From positions 56,119-120,118 of the forward strand of contig JAJECA010000024.1 in NCBI GenBank assembly GCA_022822265.1: a stretch of DNA of 64,000 nucleotides, given 5' to 3'. A program made the translations under genes and the position numbers. How positions within the stretch are numbered: position 1 is the first letter of the stretch; each line of letters opens with the position of its first letter. The notes under the pieces were generated by a model. It did no database searches and was not told the DNA's origin. It saw only the letters and a list, made by a program, of their open reading frames with translations. Of the stretch, positions 7,230 to 26,615 are shown piece by piece. Source of the stretch: Acidimicrobiia bacterium (GTDB taxonomy: Bacteria; Actinomycetota; Acidimicrobiia; Acidimicrobiales; Bin134).

Positions 7230-9812
7230 CTACCCCAACTCCTCAAGATGACCAGATGTCGGGACCTGCGGCTCAGACGGCAAGGGCAGCGCCCCGATGC
7301 TCCCGTTACCACCTAGCAGGTAATCCTGGAGCCTCCAGGCCACAATCTCGAGGGCCATTTCCACAAAGGCCTCCCGTCGCTCACTAGACACCGAGAATGT
7401 TGGGGCCATCAAACCGCCGTCTTCACCGGGCTCGTGCCTGAACAGAGACTTCCCGGGCTTGTTGGACAGGTGTTCGAGCGGCCACTTCAGCCAATAGGCC
7501 CGCCACTTCTCAGCCGACACCTCGTCCAAGTTCGGGATCTCCTTGATCTGGATGTCAGCCCGGAGCCGGAGGTCTTCCCGAATCGCCCGCAGTGACCGTT
7601 CTGCCACCTGCGCCACCGAAACCGGCTCGAATGCCCCGCCCAACTCAAGCAATGCCTGCAACGCCACCAACTTGTAGGACTTGGTGATGGGCTCTGTTTC
7701 CAACGCCCTCAACACGGCCCCAACCTCATCGACAGCTTTCTGATGACTATCAGAAAGCAACTCTTGGCGGCTCAGATAGCGATGCCAACCTCCAGCCTGC
7801 TTGATAGGGCCGCTCCCAGGCTTGATCCCCTGGGAACGTGAAGTTTGTGCCGCGGAGGGTCTCGTATCGTGCTGCTCCAGGTAGTTACGGCAAAAGTCCG
7901 CCAATGCCGCTGCTTCCTCTCGAGCAGTTGATCGCCTTCTGTCAGCCCGCTGAGAGAGCAGCTGACGCAGCAGTTCCACTGCCCCCAACTCGAACTCCAC
8001 CGAACATCCAGGAGGTAACTCGAAGTCACCACCTTCGATTACCTCGCCGAGTGCTTTGTCTGACAACCTGCCTCCTGCCGAGCTCAAATCCAAGAGGACT
8101 CGGGGCTTCATCAAAAAGCTGTGATGGTTTCCCACGAAGTCGATCACCTGAAGCGCTGTCTTTTCCTTGGAAAGGCGAAGCCCCCGTCCGAGCTGTTGCA
8201 GAAAGATCACCGGTGAGTCGGTCGGCCTTAACATCAGGACTGAGCCGATCTCGCGAATGTCGACACCTTCGTTGAACACGTCGACTGCGAACAGCACTTG
8301 GATGGCCCCGTTTCGAAGATCCTCAACCGCGCTGTGGCGAGGGGCCGAGTGCGGTCCGCTGTGGACGGCCACGGACCGCACCCCCCGTTGATTGAAAAAC
8401 TCGGCCATAAATTCGGCGTGGGCGATGGTTGTACAGAAAGCCAGCGTCGGGCCGGAGGCCCTTTCCCTCCATTCGGCCAGCGCCTGTTCGGCCCGCTGGG
8501 TGGTCTCAATGGCATCGGCCAGCTTGTCGGGGTCAAAGCGGCCATTGCGCCATGGGATAGGGGCATAGTCGGCCACATCCTTGATGCCCCAATAATGGAA
8601 CGGCACCAGCCGCTCCTGCCTGATGCCCTCAACCAGATCGCATTCGAACACCAAGTTGTTGCCACAGAGTGCGAGCAGGTCTGCGCCGTCTAGCCGGTCG
8701 GGAGTGGCGGTAAGACCGAGCAGGAACTTCGGCTGGAAGCTCTCGATGGCCCGGCGATATGTGGGGGCGGCGGCGTGGTGGAACTCGTCGACCACCACGT
8801 AGTCGAACCGGTCGGACTCGAAGCGGTCGAGGTGTCGATGCAGCGTCTGAATGCTGGCGAATACCACATCGGCTTCTGGGTCCTTATCGGCACCCAAGAA
8901 GAACCCAAAACGGCCGTCAGGCCGCACTTGGCGGAACGCGTCCCGGCTCTGACGCAATATCTCCTCCCGGTGGGCAACGAATAGCACCCGGCGGAACTCG
9001 GGGCGACTGCTGTCGAAAGCAGCGAGAAGTGTCTTCCCTAGCCCAGTGGCCATAACCACCAAACCACGGCGAAAGCCCTGATCTCTAGTCTCTTCCAAAG
9101 CCCTGAGCGCTTCTTCCTGAACAGACCATGGACTGACCGGCTGGCTGGGTGGCTCAATGGGGATATCTGCTTCGGGAGGTGGGGTGCGGGGAACGCTCTC
9201 AGGCGGTCGCCTCAATCGGTATTCGGCCACCCAGCGAGTGTCGACTGCGACGCAGCGGGGGTCGGACCAAAGCCGCTCGAAACTTTCGACCAGCGGCCCA
9301 ACATGATCCACTCCTAGGTTCCATTCCACCCCGCTTCGTATGCCTGACCAGCTCAGATTGGAACTACCCACAAATCCCCCGGCGACCGAACTGCCGGTTG
9401 AACGGAACAGGTACGCCTTGGGATGGAACGACACTTTCGGGTCGTGAAAGACCTTCACCTGAAGTTGGGCGTCGTTGAAATCGGGTCGATCAGCCAGATC
9501 CAGCAGCTGAGTAAGAGCATCGGGGTCGGTGACGGACAAATAGTCGGTAGTGATGATCCGAACCCGCGCTCCCCTCTGAAGCGCCACCTCCAGATGGCCT
9601 GCAATTAGGTTGACGCCGCTCTTCATGATGAATGAAACGGCCAAATCGATCTGGTCGACCTCCGGGTTGATCAGCCATCGCAGAATTTCCAGGTGAAGGT
9701 GCCGGTCATCAAACCCGTCCAGCAGCAGCGGCTGCCCATCGGCAAAGGGACTCCCGCCGGGAGCGCTCGCCCTTCCTGCGCCCCCCTCCGACACAGCCGG
9801 CACCCTACCCAA
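7230..9812 (-). CDS. DEAD/DEAH-box SF2 helicase with N-terminal PLD-like nuclease domain
   Basis: VSFHPKAYLFRS...GGFVGSSNLSWSGI (PLD-like HxK); ATGLGKTLLAAF, VVDEFHHAAAPTYR, LLGLTATPDRLDG, QQLGRGLRLS helicase motifs. Confidence 0.9.
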   Translation of the reverse strand: MGRVPAVSEGGAGRASAPGGSPFADGQPLLLDGFDDRHLHLEILRWLINPEVDQIDLAVSFIMKSGVNLIAGHLEVALQRGARVRIITTDYLSVTDPDALTQLLDLADRPDFNDAQLQVKVFHDPKVSFHPKAYLFRSTGSSVAGGFVGSSNLSWSGIRSGVEWNLGVDHVGPLVESFERLWSDPRCVAVDTRWVAEYRLRRPPESVPRTPPPEADIPIEPPSQPVSPWSVQEEALRALEETRDQGFRRGLVVMATGLGKTLLAAFDSSRPEFRRVLFVAHREEILRQSRDAFRQVRPDGRFGFFLGADKDPEADVVFASIQTLHRHLDRFESDRFDYVVVDEFHHAAAPTYRRAIESFQPKFLLGLTATPDRLDGADLLALCGNNLVFECDLVEGIRQERLVPFHYWGIKDVADYAPIPWRNGRFDPDKLADAIETTQRAEQALAEWRERASGPTLAFCTTIAHAEFMAEFFNQRGVRSVAVHSGPHSAPRHSAVEDLRNGAIQVLFAVDVFNEGVDIREIGSVLMLRPTDSPVIFLQQLGRGLRLSKEKTALQVIDFVGNHHSFLMKPRVLLDLSSAGGRLSDKALGEVIEGGDFELPPGCSVEFELGAVELLRQLLSQRADRRRSTAREEAAALADFCRNYLEQHDTRPSAAQTSRSQGIKPGSGPIKQAGGWHRYLSRQELLSDSHQKAVDEVGAVLRALETEPITKSYKLVALQALLELGGAFEPVSVAQVAERSLRAIREDLRLRADIQIKEIPNLDEVSAEKWRAYWLKWPLEHLSNKPGKSLFRHEPGEDGGLMAPTFSVSSERREAFVEMALEIVAWRLQDYLLGGNGSIGALPLPSEPQVPTSGHLEELG

Positions 9813-18653: not shown

Positions 18654-20123
18654 TCAGGACTCCGGATAGGGAGGGTAGAGGTCGTCCAGGGTCCAGGTGA
18701 CGATTTCGCGGGCAGGGTCGGCGGTTTCGTGGAATGACGGGGCGAAGCCGCCGGCGGAGACGAACCAGAAGGGCGAAATCGGGTCCAGAGCTTCTTGAGC
18801 CCAGCCATGGCCGCTGTCGGCTAGGCGCTCCAGAGCGACCACATGGTCCAGGTAGGTGCGGGCACCGGCAGGGCGGGTGCGGAACTTGACTGAACCGGTG
18901 ACCATTGTGCCGTCGAGCTGGCGGCCAGCAATGTCGACCTCCACTTCTCGACGGGATCGGTCTTGACCGGACCATCTGCCCCACTCGGCCACGGCAGGGA
19001 GTCCCCGACTGGGACCCCAGCGCCGGCAGGCCTGCCGGGCCACGTCTTCGAACACATGGCGGCCGACATAGCTGGGAAACGCCTCAGGCTCGATCCTCAC
19101 CCGCCAGGCGGCCTCCGGCCCCAGCGCGGCCACCGCCGACTCTGCCCACAGCCCGATCCCGTGGTGGAACCGAGTTGCCGGGTCGGCCAATCGATATCGC
19201 ACCCCCCGCTGGGGTGACGCACCAAAGTTCACCTCTCGCACCAGATACGACAGATCTTCAAGCTGCTCGATCATCCGCTTGAGCGCCGTGTCGGACTGTT
19301 GGCCCATGATCGACGCGATCTCGCCAACTGTGCGGGCGCCAAGCCCGATGCTGGCCAGTACCGCCCGGTAGCGGGATGTGCTCCGAAGACCCTCCTCCTG
19401 GTCAAGCTCAGTCTGCACCCGAATCCGGACCACTCCGTGGGGCGAAAGGAGCAACTCGGCGATGTTCTCCTTCAAGGGGCGGCCATCATCTACCACCGCC
19501 AAATTGGCTGGCAGCCCGCCGAATGCGGCGTAGGCCCGGACCCGGTCGCCGAGCATGTAGCGAGAGACCATTTGGCCCGCGTCGTAGTAGTCGAACGGGC
19601 TGAGGGGGAGCACGGCGTCGAGCCGGCCATACAGCGGCGATCCGCCAGCGGCCAGCGCCTCCAGTGTGCGCACCGCGGACCCCGAAAGCACCACCAGCAG
19701 GCCCGCTGCGCGCGACGGGCCCGATTCCCAGACGGCGTTCAGTTCCGAGGCGATCTCGCGCATTCCCCGTTCTCCATCGGCCAGGTATTGGAACTCATCT
19801 AAGACGATGACGATCGGATGGTCGGGACGAAGCCCGAACAGGGCGCGAAAGACAGTTCGCCAGGTGGGGTGGTCTTCGATTCGAAGTTCTTCCTCAGACC
19901 AGCGAGCCGCCTCATCCAGCAAGGTCTGCCGATTGATTGCCGGGGTTGTCGCCGATGCCGAGTAGTACAGCACCCGCTCAGCGGGCCAGAGATTCGAGAG
20001 TAGAAAGGTTTTGCCCACCCGTCTGCGTCCGTGGACTAGGGCCAGCGCAGGTCGCTCGCCCTCAGCCAGAGCTCGCAACCTTGTTGACTCCGCTTCGCGG
20101 TCAATCAGGGCGGTAGGTGTCAT
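18654..20123 (-). CDS. AAA ATPase of archaeal ATPase/DUF234 type
   Basis: LVHGRRRVGKTFLLSN Walker A; IVIVLDEFQYLADG Walker B; C-terminal wHTH/REase-like region. Confidence 0.85.
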   Translation of the reverse strand: MTPTALIDREAESTRLRALAEGERPALALVHGRRRVGKTFLLSNLWPAERVLYYSASATTPAINRQTLLDEAARWSEEELRIEDHPTWRTVFRALFGLRPDHPIVIVLDEFQYLADGERGMREIASELNAVWESGPSRAAGLLVVLSGSAVRTLEALAAGGSPLYGRLDAVLPLSPFDYYDAGQMVSRYMLGDRVRAYAAFGGLPANLAVVDDGRPLKENIAELLLSPHGVVRIRVQTELDQEEGLRSTSRYRAVLASIGLGARTVGEIASIMGQQSDTALKRMIEQLEDLSYLVREVNFGASPQRGVRYRLADPATRFHHGIGLWAESAVAALGPEAAWRVRIEPEAFPSYVGRHVFEDVARQACRRWGPSRGLPAVAEWGRWSGQDRSRREVEVDIAGRQLDGTMVTGSVKFRTRPAGARTYLDHVVALERLADSGHGWAQEALDPISPFWFVSAGGFAPSFHETADPAREIVTWTLDDLYPPYPES

Positions 20124-20129
20124 GCGGCA

Positions 20130-20158
20130 AGTCTATGATGACCTAATGCATTAGTCAA
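20130..20158 (-). promoter_or_regulatory. Sigma-70-like promoter TTGACT-N17-TAGACT of the ATPase gene, 6 nt before ATG (leaderless type)
   Basis: Minus strand TTGACT AATGCATTAGGTCATCA TAGACT TGCCGC ATG. Confidence 0.7.
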
Positions 20159-20202
20159 CTAACGTGTTAGTAGACTAATGCATTAGACGGCTAGTGTGCA
20201 TT
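20143..20202. repeat. Palindromic iteron array, 16-bp period (CTAATGCATTAG / CTAACGTGTTAG / CTAATGCATTAG / degenerate CTAGTGTGCATT)
   Basis: Unit starts at 20143, 20159, 20175, 20191. Confidence 0.8.
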
Positions 20203-20309
20203 GGGGCGATAGTGAGCCGTTTCTAAGCAAAGTATGTCGATAGCGCATAGAGATTCCTCTGTCCGAGTCATTTGGACCATAGGAATACATCTCAACTAGA
20301 CATTTCAGG

Positions 20310-23300
20310 ATGCCCCGCAGGGAGACGGTAAAACGAGCCGCAGAGCAATGGGCCAAGGAGTTGACCGACGAGTCGGGTCGAAATCGGCTGTTGTACTACC
20401 GAGTGTTGAAGAGGGGCACTCTGGAATTGGATCAAGCCGTGCCCAGCGTGCGAAAACGCTTGCTGAACGGAAAGAAGGTACACCTCCAGGCACTATTTCC
20501 CGGCGAGCTCTTCGACGACGCTCTGAGGAGCATCCGGGCGGTAAGCCGCAAGGCCACTAGCAACTACGAGGAGAAGGGCATAAACACGCTGTTCTTGGGA
20601 TGGGGAATGGCGACTTGGACCCCTGTTTCTTCAAGCGCCACCCCGGCCGCGCCGGTGCTGCTGTGCCCTGTGGACCTGGCCCGCACGGGTGCCGCGGAAG
20701 TGGACTTCGACATTCAGCTAAGCGGCGAATGGGCTCTCAACGAAGCGCTCCTTCAGCACTTGGCCAACGAGTTCGAGGTAAATGTCTCGGGTGAGAACCT
20801 TATGGACCCCTATGGCGATGGCGATCAGATCAGCGAAAAGGAGGAAAAAGAGATCTTTGCCGAGTTGAGCCGACGGGCTGAAAGGGTCCCGAATTTCGAA
20901 ACCTCCGAGAGAGTCGTGCTGGGCAATTTCATGTACAAGAAGATGCCGATGGTCAACGACCTCAACGAGAACCTCGATGCTCTGGCACAGAGTGATTTGA
21001 TCGCCGCCATCGCCGGCGATGAGGAAGCAGAGCAGTCGCTGCTGACTCACCGGGCCACCGCCGTGGAGCCATCGCTGCCCGACCGGACCCCTCCCGAGAG
21101 CGAGTTCTTGGTGCTAGACGCGGATTCCTCTCAGAATGAGGCCATCAACGCTGCATTGGCTGGCGAGTCGTTCGTGCTCCAGGGCCCTCCCGGCACCGGC
21201 AAGAGCCAGACCATCTCCAACCTCATCGCCGCCATGATGGCCAAGGGAAAGAGCGTTCTGTTCGTGGCCGAAAAGCGGGCGGCTATCGATGCGGTCGCCA
21301 AGCGACTCACCCGGGTGGGTCTTGACAATCATGTGATGGACCTCCACGGAGGCATCTCCTCCCGCAAAGAGCTGGCCCGTCAGCTCAATCAGTCACTTCG
21401 GGACATCGGCCAGATTCCTCCGGCCAACCAACAAGACCTACATAGCAGTCTGCACGATGCTCGTAAGGAGCTGTCGGACCACGCCGAGGCTCTACATCAG
21501 GAACGCGCTCCATGGGGATTGTCGTACTTCGAGGTGCGGTCTCGGCTGCTGGCACATGAAGATTCCGCTTCCTCAAGCGGGGACAGGCCACAACCGCCGA
21601 TGCAGATCCCCTCTTCAGCTCTAGCCGAATTGGACGATGTAACTGCCCAACAGGTGCGCCGCGACATAAGGGACTGGGCCGACCTCTCCGAGCCCCTCCG
21701 CTCGGGCCGCTCACCGTGGGCAGGCGCCACAATTGCCACTGATGACGAGGTCCGACGCGCACTTGACGCATGCACTGGCCTGTCCGGCGAACTCACCTCC
21801 GCCTGTCGAGTCCAGCAGGAGTCGCTTTCCGATGATCTAGGAATAGGCGATGCCGGGTCTTTTGCTGAGTGGACCACGGTGGTTGCCGAGGTCTCAGAGT
21901 TGACGCGCGACATTGCAAAAACCGAGGGCACTCTGACCCCCGAGATATTCGATCGAGATTTGGACCGGCTGACCGAAGATATGGCCCCTGCTGCCAAAGG
22001 CGTGCTGAGTCGGGTGTTCAACAAGCGGTACAGGGCAGCAAAGGCCGATGTGGACAGTCTCCAGCCCGGATCAACCACACTAGGAGCGAAGGCTGCGCTG
22101 GACGCCGTCGTCGCTGCCAGCAGTCAGGCCCGCCGGTGGTCCAAACTGGGCTGCTCCGGTTCGCCCCGAATCCCTGCCAGCCCGGAGAAGGCAGTCGAGG
22201 CATTCGGCAAGATGAAAGACGCTGTCGACGACTTAGCTTCATTGCTGCCTGAGGGGAGGTTAGAAGGGAAAACCGGGGATGGTATCGCCGCCATGGCCCA
22301 AGCGTTGCTCAACGACCAGCGCACGTTGTTGAGCCTGCCCAAGCTGGCAGAAGTGGAACTGAGCCTGCGAGCTGCCCATGTGGGACCGCTGTTGGAAAAT
22401 GCCTCAGGCGGCACCCTCGCTGCTGGCGACCTGGCGAGTGCATTTGACCACTGCTGGCTGAGATCTATCGAGCAGGAAGTGCTGCTAGGAGATAGTCGCC
22501 TTTCGGGATTCCAAGGAATTCGCCAGAGCCGCTACGTCGAGCAGTTCCAGCAGTCGGACCGAGACCACTTGAGCGTCACCCCGGCCAGGGTGGCCCGCCG
22601 TGTCGCGGAGCACGCAATGGCCGCGCTAAACCAAGTACCCGAACAGGACAGCCTGATACGCAAGGAGTCCAACAAGAAGACTCGTCACCTCCCGCTGCGC
22701 CGACTATTCGAGCATGCCCCCGAGGCGTTGACCGCCTTGCGACCGTGTTGGGCGATGTCACCCCTTGATGTGGCGCAGACTTTGCCGCCGCGTCCACTGT
22801 TCGACCTTGTGGTATTCGACGAGGCCAGCCAGGTGCTGCCCTGCGACGCCATTCCTGCTCTGCTGAGAGGAAAGCGGGCCATGATCGCCGGTGACTCCCG
22901 CCAGCTTCCGCCAACGACGTTCTTCGACGGTTCTGGTGGTGATGATGACCTTGACGAAGAAGAGGAATCGATGTCGGATTTCGAGTCGATCCTGGATGTG
23001 ATGGACTCTCGGCTATCCCGGCGCCCGCTCACCTGGCACTACCGCTCCCAAGACGAGCGGCTCATCGCCTACTCCAACCAGGAGATCTACCACGGAAGCC
23101 TGACCACCTTTCCAGGTGCCGATGCCGACCAGTGCCTGAACTGGGTGCCGGTACCGCATCGGATGGGCGTCGCCACTGAAAGGGGCAGTAATTCCGACGA
23201 GGTGCTGCGCGTAGTAGATCTGATGATCGACCACGCCCTTCAAAGGCCTGCTGAGAGCCTTGGAGTAATCGCTATGGGGCTGCACCACGCCAACCGCATT

Positions 23301-24758
23301 GAGGAGTCCCTGCGAAGGCGGATTGAAGAGGAGAACAGCCCAGAACTCGAAGAGTTCTTCAAGGAATCGCATGAGGAACGGGCTTTTGTGAAGAACTTGG
23401 AGCGAGTACAGGGTGACGAACGGGATGCCATCATCTTGAGCATCGGCTATGGCAAGAACGCCAGTGGCAAGATGCTGTACCGATTCGGCCCACTCAATCA
23501 ACAGGGTGGAGAGCGGCGGCTGAACGTGGCCATCACCAGGGCCAGAAAGCGCATGACTTTGGTGTCTTCATTCGACTATGCCGACTTGGACCCCGAAAGG
23601 ACGAAATCCACCGGAGCCAAGATGTTGCGAGGCTTCTTGAAGTTCGCGCAATCAGGCGGATCAGAATTGGACGGTTCCAGTGAGCGACAGCCGCTGAATC
23701 CGTTCGAGATCGACGTTATGGACAAGCTCAAGGCCTCAGGCCTCCAGGTAGTGCCGCAATACGGGTGCTCGGGCTATCGCATCGACTTCGCGGTTTGCCA
23801 TTCTGAAAAGCCGGGACAATTCGTTTTGGCGGTTGAAGCCGACGGTGCCAGCTATCACGCCTCCCCCACGGCTCGAGACCGCGACCGTCTTCGCCAGGAG
23901 CACTTGGAGCGACTCGGCTGGCGGTTCTGCCGCATCTGGTCCTCCGACTGGTTCAACGACCACAGCCAAGAGGTCAACCGAGTGCTCACCGCCTACGAGC
24001 AAGCCGTAGCTGAGATCGACGCACGGGCAAATGCCCCAGCGGCTAGCTCATTGCTTGATTCTCAAGAAGGCCCAATTTCCCACACAGTTGATGCGAGGTT
24101 GGAGACCCAGCCTGCTCGAATCTCCAAACCCCACATTCCGTACTACTCCACCATTGATGAGTATTCGCACAGAACTCTCGTCGCCATAGCCCTCTGGATT
24201 AGTTCCGACGGCCTCCTCCGAACCGACAGACAACTGTTCGAGGAGATCTTCAAGGAACTGCCCTTCAAGCGCCGCGGTGCCAAGATCAACGCGGCTATCG
24301 ACAAGGCCATCCGCGCGGCGACGGGGTCCTCAGAATCAGAGCAGACTTCTGTAGCAGTGCCCGAACAGAGCCCAACACGAGCACCGGATAGGTCCACCGG
24401 GTCTTCAACAGCAGCGGCGGCCTCGAAGTGGGCCAGATACAACTACAACATCGTTGGTGAATCGTTCTACAGGGATCGCCTTCACCAGATAATGAGGGGC
24501 ACGCCAGGAGATAAGAGGGGATGGAAAAGGCGAGAAGTGGGTTTGAAGCTGGTGGCCCAACCCCACAACCCCCATGACAGCAATGCCATCAGCATTCAGC
24601 ACCAAGGCCATGTAGTTGGCCATGTCGCTCGAACCAAGACAATGAAATTTCACCGGACATATGGAGTGAGGCTCATGGCCGGGGTGGAGGTTGACGGTCT
24701 AGTCACGGGACGCAACGGTAAGTGGAGTGTGAAGCTAGATCTCAAGAGCATTCGCTAG
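20310..24758 (+). CDS. Large SF1 helicase (DUF4011-like N-term) fused to Vsr/MTES-type REase-like domain and C-terminal HIRAN domain
   Basis: LQGPPGTGKSQTISNLIAAM, LVVFDEASQVLPCDAIPALL, GDSRQLPPTTFF, GGERRLNVAITRARKRM; FVLAVEADGASYHASPTARDRDRLRQEHLERLGWRFCRIWSSDWF; IVGESFYRDRLHQI...LVAQPHNPHDSNAISIQHQGHVVGHVAR. Confidence 0.9.
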   Translation: MPRRETVKRAAEQWAKELTDESGRNRLLYYRVLKRGTLELDQAVPSVRKRLLNGKKVHLQALFPGELFDDALRSIRAVSRKATSNYEEKGINTLFLGWGMATWTPVSSSATPAAPVLLCPVDLARTGAAEVDFDIQLSGEWALNEALLQHLANEFEVNVSGENLMDPYGDGDQISEKEEKEIFAELSRRAERVPNFETSERVVLGNFMYKKMPMVNDLNENLDALAQSDLIAAIAGDEEAEQSLLTHRATAVEPSLPDRTPPESEFLVLDADSSQNEAINAALAGESFVLQGPPGTGKSQTISNLIAAMMAKGKSVLFVAEKRAAIDAVAKRLTRVGLDNHVMDLHGGISSRKELARQLNQSLRDIGQIPPANQQDLHSSLHDARKELSDHAEALHQERAPWGLSYFEVRSRLLAHEDSASSSGDRPQPPMQIPSSALAELDDVTAQQVRRDIRDWADLSEPLRSGRSPWAGATIATDDEVRRALDACTGLSGELTSACRVQQESLSDDLGIGDAGSFAEWTTVVAEVSELTRDIAKTEGTLTPEIFDRDLDRLTEDMAPAAKGVLSRVFNKRYRAAKADVDSLQPGSTTLGAKAALDAVVAASSQARRWSKLGCSGSPRIPASPEKAVEAFGKMKDAVDDLASLLPEGRLEGKTGDGIAAMAQALLNDQRTLLSLPKLAEVELSLRAAHVGPLLENASGGTLAAGDLASAFDHCWLRSIEQEVLLGDSRLSGFQGIRQSRYVEQFQQSDRDHLSVTPARVARRVAEHAMAALNQVPEQDSLIRKESNKKTRHLPLRRLFEHAPEALTALRPCWAMSPLDVAQTLPPRPLFDLVVFDEASQVLPCDAIPALLRGKRAMIAGDSRQLPPTTFFDGSGGDDDLDEEEESMSDFESILDVMDSRLSRRPLTWHYRSQDERLIAYSNQEIYHGSLTTFPGADADQCLNWVPVPHRMGVATERGSNSDEVLRVVDLMIDHALQRPAESLGVIAMGLHHANRIEESLRRRIEEENSPELEEFFKESHEERAFVKNLERVQGDERDAIILSIGYGKNASGKMLYRFGPLNQQGGERRLNVAITRARKRMTLVSSFDYADLDPERTKSTGAKMLRGFLKFAQSGGSELDGSSERQPLNPFEIDVMDKLKASGLQVVPQYGCSGYRIDFAVCHSEKPGQFVLAVEADGASYHASPTARDRDRLRQEHLERLGWRFCRIWSSDWFNDHSQEVNRVLTAYEQAVAEIDARANAPAASSLLDSQEGPISHTVDARLETQPARISKPHIPYYSTIDEYSHRTLVAIALWISSDGLLRTDRQLFEEIFKELPFKRRGAKINAAIDKAIRAATGSSESEQTSVAVPEQSPTRAPDRSTGSSTAAAASKWARYNYNIVGESFYRDRLHQIMRGTPGDKRGWKRREVGLKLVAQPHNPHDSNAISIQHQGHVVGHVARTKTMKFHRTYGVRLMAGVEVDGLVTGRNGKWSVKLDLKSIR

Positions 24759-24965
24759 AGCAGGTCACGCCAGCTACATCCAGATCGATCCTTAGATCCT
24801 CCGGTCAGCCAGTTTCCTAGACACAGCCGTGGGGCGAAGGGAATTTCAAGGACGCAGACTTCGAATTTGCCGATATGCTCCCTTTGACCCTTGCTGGAGG
24901 GATGTCCAGCCGCTGTATCTCACTTCCCCCGCCCAGTCAGCTCCTACTCATCTGCTGGACGTTCC

Positions 24966-25733
24966 GTGTGGCTTAGCTATCTGGACGAGAGCGGCAATAC
25001 AGGTGGCAATCTGGAGGACCCAGATCAGCCGATCCACTTGATTGCCGCGGTCATGGTCCCCGAAGACCAGGTGCAAGGCCTGTCTTCGGCATTTCATCTC
25101 CTGCCCGCCTTTACCAAGGAGCCTCGTCTGATTGGCGAACTTCGAGGCGCCGATCTCTATTCGGGAAGGGGGCCGTGGAAAGGCTTCTCTCCCTCAGAGC
25201 GCATTGATACCTACCACGGGGCTTTGGCCTTGCTGGGCCGGCACGGGGCGTTCGTGGCCCATGCGTCGATCGACAAGTGGGCCTTGCGCCAATCCGCATC
25301 TTCAGGACCGCAGATGCCGCATCTGCTTGCCTTGCGGTTTCTTGCCGAAGAGATGGAGAGCTACCTGAAGCAGCAGATTGACCCGCTGAGGCAGCGCACC
25401 CTGCTCATTGCAGACGAAACGCATGAGCACGAGGCATTCGCCCACGGCCTCGTAACGCGGATGCAAGCTGGCAATCCGTCATCCGACGGGGGTACGACCA
25501 TCACCAGAATCGTGGACCGAGTTCACTTTGTACGGTCTGAGACGAGTCCTGGGGTTCAACTTGCTGATTTGGCAGCGTTTGTCCTGACTCGCCGCAAGCG
25601 TTTCCCAACCTCGTCGCTTCGGCCTTCAGACATCGCAATAGCAAGGCTGGCGGAGATCGTAGATAGCAGAGTTGTGGCCTCGCGGGATACCTGGCCCTCA
25701 CGCGATGAAGGCCCGCAAAGCGGACCTTCATGA
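24966..25733 (+). CDS. DUF3800 domain protein
   Basis: LSYLDESGNTGGNLEDPDQPIHLIAAVMVPE...; ADETHEHEAF; VQLADLAAFVL. Confidence 0.8.
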   Translation: MWLSYLDESGNTGGNLEDPDQPIHLIAAVMVPEDQVQGLSSAFHLLPAFTKEPRLIGELRGADLYSGRGPWKGFSPSERIDTYHGALALLGRHGAFVAHASIDKWALRQSASSGPQMPHLLALRFLAEEMESYLKQQIDPLRQRTLLIADETHEHEAFAHGLVTRMQAGNPSSDGGTTITRIVDRVHFVRSETSPGVQLADLAAFVLTRRKRFPTSSLRPSDIAIARLAEIVDSRVVASRDTWPSRDEGPQSGPS

Positions 25734-25850
25734 TGGCTGGATCGCCTCGGTGGCCCGAAGCTGCGCCTCGGTGTCCCAAAGCGCTCGCAGCCAAGACAAA
25801 TGTTACCGCTTTGCCCTCATCTATCAATCGGGATTACTCGACACTTCAGA

Positions 25851-26615
25851 TCACGAAGGCTTGACAGTGAATCCGGTTCGGCGTTGGCGGGCGATCTCGA
25901 AGCACAAGATGGCGGTGGCGGAGGCGACGTTTAGGGATTCGACTGATTCGGCCATGGGAATCGACACCCAGCGGTCTATGGCGGCGGTTTGATCGAGTTG
26001 ATCGAGGCCGTGGGCCTCGTTGCCCACCACCAGGGTGAGGGGGCCGGTTAGGTCGGCTTGGTGGTAGGGGTCGCCTCGGTGGGGGTCGGCGCCGATGCGT
26101 TCCCCTTTCGGTCCCGTCGCGGCCAGGGGGGCTCGGAACAGCGCACCGGCCGAGGCCCGCACGGTTTTGGGATTCCAGGGGTCTACTGATTCTGGGCTGA
26201 ACACCACGGCTTGGGCCCCGGCGGCTACTGCGGTGCGGACGATGGTGCCAGCGTTGCCGGGGTCGGCGACTCCAGCCAGCTCGACGGCAAAATCGCCGTC
26301 GGCCACGGGGGCGATCTCAGGAATGCGGGCGGTGGCCATGACGCCCTGGGGGGTGACCACCGAGCCCACCTTGGCCAGAACCCCGTCACCCACCGTCCAC
26401 ACTGGGGCGCTCACTGAGACTCCCAAGTCGGCCCACAAATCGATCACGGGCTCCACAAAGACGTCGACGATCTCCAGATCGGCAGCCACCGCCTCGACCA
26501 GCAGTTGCGGGCCGTCGATGACGAACTTGCCGGCCTCAGCGCGATCTCGGCGGTTGCGGACTAGTCGGCGAAGTTCCGCAATCCGGGGGTTTCGGGGGCT
26601 GAGTGGCTTGCTGAT
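25851..26615 (-). CDS. TrmH/SpoU-family RNA 2'-O-methyltransferase (5' end uncertain)
   Basis: LAGVADPGNAGTIVRTAVAAGAQAVVF, LTLVVGNEAHGL, VSIPMAESVESLNVASATAI; N-term SKPLSPRNPRIAELRRLVRNRRDRAEAGKFVIDGPQLLVEA continues upstream of the only canonical start (GTG 26489). Confidence 0.85.
   Translation of the reverse strand: MSKPLSPRNPRIAELRRLVRNRRDRAEAGKFVIDGPQLLVEAVAADLEIVDVFVEPVIDLWADLGVSVSAPVWTVGDGVLAKVGSVVTPQGVMATARIPEIAPVADGDFAVELAGVADPGNAGTIVRTAVAAGAQAVVFSPESVDPWNPKTVRASAGALFRAPLAATGPKGERIGADPHRGDPYHQADLTGPLTLVVGNEAHGLDQLDQTAAIDRWVSIPMAESVESLNVASATAILCFEIARQRRTGFTVKPS

Follow-up and report, generated by a model that had tools for sequence, protein, structure and literature searches.

We analysed a 64,000-nucleotide stretch of DNA from an Acidimicrobiia bacterium (the window; contig JAJECA010000024.1, positions 56,119 to 120,118), in which the gap between a minus-strand ATPase gene (18654-20123) and a plus-strand helicase gene (20310-24758) holds a tandem array of short palindromes. 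Units 1-3 of this array are 12-bp palindromes that follow one another at an exact 16-bp step (20143-20186), as a first-pass annotation of the window sequence had claimed; the fourth unit that it also counted is doubtful, because its sequence is degenerate and the homology to sister genomes stops just short of it, at ~20186. The promoter described in that annotation is likewise present: on the minus strand, TTGACT (20158-20153) is followed by 17 nt, TAGACT (20135-20130), 6 nt and the ATG of the ATPase gene (20123-20121), with promoter elements assigned by consensus only, and the first palindrome lies over the -35 box and the spacer. The -35 box occupies the gap separating units 1 and 2 together with the final two bases of unit 1, whose remainder falls within the 17-nt spacer. 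Since the -10-like TAGACT stands 6 nt from the ATG, the transcript would be leaderless. The tandem dyad sites overlap the core promoter of the ATPase gene, that is, of the putative binder's own gene.

Allowing up to two mismatches, the tandem pattern CTAAN4TTAGN4CTAAN4TTAG occurs at one place in the 3.48-Mb genome, the ATPase promoter, and single sites with two mismatches allowed occur at chance level. A genome search for other sites, proposed in the first-pass annotation, returned no second tandem site, so that a regulon-wide site is ruled out, and only two other single near-sites (one mismatch). Among 59 relatives, the tandem pattern was present in all four genomes with a 5'-complete orthologous ATPase gene and in two more that look like chance, because a reversed control pattern also matches there. 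An 80%-identical ATPase is encoded in five genus relatives, one copy being truncated by a contig end, and in all four sister genomes with a complete 5' end the array stands directly before the ATPase start, drifted in sequence and 3 to ~7 units long. The gene next upstream in those four genomes is methyltransferase-like (SpoU-type by eye) and directly adjoins the array; its counterpart in the window lies at 25851-26489, and the 5.7 kb at 20187-25878, which hold a DUF3800 gene as well as the DUF4011 helicase, are extra in the window. The chromosomal position of the ATPase locus is kept across the sister species. At the sister loci the array stands without either the helicase or the DUF3800 gene. 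Its partner is therefore the ATPase alone, next to whose resident locus the helicase region has been inserted; a tie between array and helicase is ruled out, and with it the earlier proposal that the array travels with an ATPase-helicase pair. This neighbour-gene evidence consists of synteny with sister genomes only, as a wider BLAST comparison was cluttered by antisense open reading frames (ORFs) and left unused.

The array recurs far beyond the genus. From Gemmatimonadota and Deinococcota, a scan of species genomes recovered orthologues that are 41-53% identical and carry 16-bp dyad arrays directly before the start codon with different half-sites (for example TGCAAYYR and AGCACATC), and a profile built from these orthologues found further members in three phyla; one clade at 37-39% identity has the half-site TAACACYA. 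We then assembled 71 family genes whose proteins share less than 78% identity and took the 180 bp upstream of each. The best direct-repeat period was 16 in 32/71 and 15 in 19/71 of these regions, compared with 21/213 random windows from the same loci. A score combining dyad symmetry and periodicity was best at 15 or 16 in 57/71 family upstream regions, counts that are not wholly independent because some members are related, against 22/147 upstream regions of other ORFs, a few of which may match the array itself because the window's divergent genes are among these controls, and 15/70 regions downstream of the ATPase. The period is 16 bp in high-scoring relatives and 15 bp in most others; more distant members, Alphaproteobacteria and haloarchaea among them, often have 15-bp arrays. 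This difference of one base pair between the two clades would imply an altered dimer-dimer spacing on DNA. Named plasmid homologues from haloarchaea and Mesorhizobium have 15-bp arrays, and that of Halomontanus rarus reads AAAATAGCCTACTTC / AAAATAGACTATTTC / AAAATAGGCTAACTC / AGAATAGTCTATTCG. The conserved trait is therefore the period and dyad architecture as judged from upstream sequences, while the sequence itself drifts in sisters and is rewritten in distant orthologues. Absence of the array upstream of orthologous ATPase genes had been named in the first-pass annotation as evidence against its proposal; the array was found there, its spelling drifted or rewritten, and the proposal survived.

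Paralogues within single genomes show which component the array follows. One genome encodes three family members, L138, L146 and L148 (42-49% identical), with three different arrays, each resembling those of its own clade; near-identical loci of L138 and L146 exist in another genome, and the array type GACACYATRGTCTAA of L148 is common to L143 and L144, the proteins being 56-65% identical. The genome of the window has a second family member, L016, with a 15-bp array of different sequence, and genome G015 likewise has two members, L004 and L015, with different arrays. L016 and L015 belong to a second ATPase group in the genus and order (L008-L010, L012 and L015-L017; 78-90% identical where compared) that has a common 15-bp AAGTNNACTT-like array. 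By this family comparison, site specificity is inherited together with the encoded protein, and the protein rather than the host sets the array, because a host regulator predicts like arrays within one genome and the reverse is seen.

The ATPase is a 489-residue protein with an ATPase_2 AAA domain (PF01637, 40.7 bits against a cutoff of 33.2), and its P-loop, GRRRVGKT, is almost invariant among aligned family members. It matches the PDC-S27 profile PDLC04984 over nearly its full length (E 1.5e-29, residues 5-414 of 489 onto profile positions 3-412 of 474), an assignment judged by E value and not by PADLOC's own score threshold; no NCBIfam model matched it. Residues 249-312 form a winged helix in the predicted structure (predicted local distance difference test score, pLDDT, 90), which further comprises the AAA domain, two long helices and a PD-(D/E)XK-like sheet; the winged helix-turn-helix (HTH) placed at the C-terminus by the first-pass annotation is thus predicted to lie mid-protein, ahead of the PD-(D/E)XK-like domain. 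In this last domain E395 and D397 are conserved and K413 nearly so, and the order of secondary-structure elements fits the superfamily; the E of the ExK motif is replaced by S or A in every aligned orthologue, which would suggest altered or lost nuclease activity. The closest solved folds are PABY2304 and SSO1545, followed by DNA-bound Orc1/Cdc6, and not ParA. We regard the ATPase as a candidate antiviral defence protein of the PDC-S27 type. The features described so far are collected in Table 1.

Table 1. Positions of the array, promoter elements and ATPase domains in the window.
Feature	Coordinates	Strand	Remark
Palindromic unit 1, CTAATGCATTAG	20143..20154	.	Overlaps the end of the -35 box; otherwise inside the -35/-10 spacer
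Palindromic unit 2, CTAACGTGTTAG	20159..20170	.	From sequence
Palindromic unit 3, CTAATGCATTAG	20175..20186	.	Outer edge of sister-genome homology
Degenerate fourth unit, CTAGTGTGCATT	20191..20202	.	Doubtful; beyond the homology break, towards the insertion
-35-like TTGACT	20153..20158	-	TTGA doubles as inter-unit spacer of the array
-10-like TAGACT	20130..20135	-	6 nt ahead of the ATPase ATG; probably leaderless
ATPase, 489 aa, ATPase_2 / PDC-S27-like	18654..20123	-	Profile matches
Winged helix-turn-helix, residues 249-312, recognition helix 279-290	19188..19379	-	Proposed operator reader, predicted structure
PD-(D/E)XK-like C-terminal domain, residues ~372-485	18669..19010	-	Alignment and predicted structure

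The recurrence of the array with the ATPase across phyla strongly suggests, from comparative sequence evidence, that the ATPase controls its own gene, and the explanation that we hold to be very probable is that the array is a private operator of the ATPase gene, to which the ATPase would bind through its winged helix, thereby regulating its own expression. Binding by the ATPase is proposed because array and ATPase are co-inherited, and repression because of the position of the array on the promoter; control by nucleotide state is proposed by analogy with type Ia ParA (PMC8465637, PMC4492784). According to this model, the central winged helix would bind the array, probably as dimers, with half-sites alternating in direction every 8 bp and neighbouring dimers, 16 bp apart, stacking cooperatively over 2 to ~7 units. 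With its sites occupied, the array would mask the -35 box as well as the spacer that leads to the -10 element; the leaderless transcript would thereby be repressed and the ATPase kept low, until a trigger that changes nucleotide state or oligomerisation abolished binding and derepressed the gene. The cooperative, autoregulatory operator suggested by the first-pass annotation thus finds strong support in comparative evidence from beyond the window, with three of its parts corrected: the pairing with the helicase, the position of the winged helix and the conservation of sequence. A broader claim, to which we lean only slightly, is that gene and private 15/16-bp dyad array form a self-contained unit throughout the large, cross-domain PDC-S27-like family, in which the ATPase would read its own array and the protein-operator pair would be continually rewritten together.

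Covariation of half-site and protein was used as a further line of evidence. In the 16-bp clade, dyads every 8 bp define an 8-bp half-site with the mean form TRCAANYR, and similarity of half-sites correlates with similarity of winged helices when that of the AAA and C-terminal domains is removed (partial r 0.31, reached in 0/500 permutations, with shared ancestry remaining). Position 277, where the recognition helix begins, is asparagine in 12/16 proteins whose half-site has G at position 2, against 0/20 others (counted by eye). We take this evidence as supportive of the winged helix as the putative reader, although it is confounded by ancestry. Several points count against the autoregulatory reading: the permutations leave shared ancestry in place, a partial correlation (0.24) persists for similarity of the AAA domain as well, and a covariation scan with a 13-residue sliding window was not significant (maximum partial r 0.279 against a permutation 95% level of 0.312). 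A clear array was, moreover, not seen in many Thermoproteota, in L120, L121 and L071 or in the 23%-identical L074; many Thermoproteota score best at other periods, and the expectation of an array in all distant members failed. The N-terminal end of L071 (Trueperaceae) is disrupted, and this gene may be a decaying copy or an assembly fault. Several members from the archaeal phylum of L075 have an array that apparently extends across the start codon, and others of that phylum have none; 15-bp palindromes of this kind are seen in the archaeal members L171, L173, L175, L190 and L193.

The array could instead be bound by a host repressor encoded elsewhere, for example of TetR or MarR type, that controls the ATPase; CTAAYRYRTTAG resembles a common dimeric repressor site, regulators may be non-adjacent to their targets, and dedicated upstream regulators run other defence operons, such as CapK/CapS (PMC13373217). 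Such a regulator is hard to reconcile with the single tandem site in the genome, with arrays that differ among paralogues of one genome and are alike among orthologues of different genomes, with an array that remains beside the ATPase when its other neighbour changes, and with an architecture that spans phyla and domains while the half-site varies, and we therefore consider it improbable. A chance origin of the repeats, or their being mere low-complexity sequence in AT-rich intergenic DNA, is next to inconceivable: single sites do occur at chance level when two mismatches are allowed, but the exact tandem period, its conservation in sister species and its recurrence with other sequences speak against chance, which the family-wide period test refutes.

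Less remote, though still unlikely in our estimate, is a variant that overlaps with the autoregulatory model, in which the ATPase binds the array chiefly for activation, or for storage in a DNA-bound inactive form released by infection. ATPases with an SSO1545-like domain can activate, as IniR does for iniBAC (PMC5760070), and arrays of ~7 units (L005, L065) exceed the needs of simple promoter occlusion; the overlap of the array with the core promoter, including the -35 box and spacer in the window, nevertheless favours repression, as do the -10-like TACGAT or TATACT seen by eye within the last unit of several orthologues, and storage and repression are compatible with each other. A role of the array as a site for the recombination, transposition or partition of a mobile cassette, rather than as an operator, would fit the family members found on plasmids, the window's insertion border, which coincides with the outer edge of the array, and the array binding of partition ATPases. 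It appears very improbable all the same, because the array is 5'-sided (best period 15/16 in 57/71 upstream against 15/70 downstream regions) and fixed to the promoter and start codon, because the locus keeps its position in sister species, and because no ParB-like partner was seen.

Type Ia ParA proteins carry their winged helix at the N-terminus and are deviant-Walker partition ATPases that act with a ParB partner. The window ATPase is unlike them in being an ATPase_2 (SSO1545-like) protein with a central winged helix, a PD-(D/E)XK-like tail and a strict 15/16-bp tandem array, and, with SSO1545-type and Orc1/Cdc6 as its nearest folds, we reject its assignment to a type Ia partition system. 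Type Ia ParA and RepA ATPases (P1, F, repABC) nonetheless repress their own promoters with several dimers cooperatively bound (PMC8465637, PMC4492784), and thus resemble the family in being ATPases with a winged-helix domain of their own and in its putative self-repression. Among archaeal Walker ATPases, SSO1545 (2FNA) and PABY2304 (2QEN) matched in Foldseek with E values of 3e-9 and 6e-12, and PABY2304 is also matched by sequence over profile positions 88-301, which leaves the C-terminal domain uncovered; both are ~350 aa long versus 489 aa for the window ATPase. In the mycobacterial signal-transduction ATPase IniR, an SSO1545-like AAA domain is joined to a DNA-binding domain, and the protein controls transcription from a promoter to which it binds (PMC5760070), but it differs in its MalT-like sensor, its C-terminal SdiA-like HTH and its activation of another operon. 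The defence-linked antitoxin AbiEi binds inverted repeats cooperatively and in this way represses the promoter of its own gene (PMC7319586), but belongs to a two-gene toxin-antitoxin pair and is no ATPase. PDC-S27 itself is a single-gene putative phage-defence candidate in which an ATPase is fused to a PD-(D/E)XK domain, and validation is still pending for most PDCs (PMC12988326); the window ATPase resembles it in its near full-length profile match and in the putative fusion of an ATPase with a PD-(D/E)XK-like domain.

The insertion at 20187-25878 is lower in GC than its surroundings and encodes a 1482-aa protein with DUF4011, SF1 helicase, MTES_1575 nuclease and HIRAN regions, which resembles PDC-S37, Hhe and ProA below NCBIfam cutoffs. 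In another genome of the genus (G017:C94, with L006 and L026), a helicase of this type stands in opposite orientation close to the 3' end of the ATPase orthologue, and this arrangement raises the possibility that the ATPase locus may be an insertion hotspot. A second defence-like gene of the window, at 7230-9812, encodes a helicase-containing protein similar to type IV methyl-directed restriction enzymes (PADLOC mREase_IV, E 2.9e-99).

PDC-S27-like ATPases are numerous, with 3503 detected in archaea and 4562 in bacteria (PMC12988326), and in the open-access literature we found neither an established mechanism for them nor a report of an operator array or autoregulation in the PDC-S27-like family. 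Operator arrays and self-repressing ATPases are already known; what appears to be new, relative to that literature, is a strict 15/16-bp array with changing half-sites that is widespread in PDC-S27-like ATPases. The array offers an experimental handle: every protein comes with its own defined DNA ligand, the activity state could be followed with a reporter, and derepression would give a route to the trigger. The family also constitutes a natural series of protein-DNA co-evolution, in which period and symmetry are fixed and the half-site varies by clade, with residue 277 and half-site base 2 as a candidate contact. If the broader claim of a self-contained unit of gene and array is true, such units would prevent cross-regulation among paralogues in one cell, and the nucleotide or oligomer state of the ATPase, and hence the infection trigger, would be coupled directly to its own expression.
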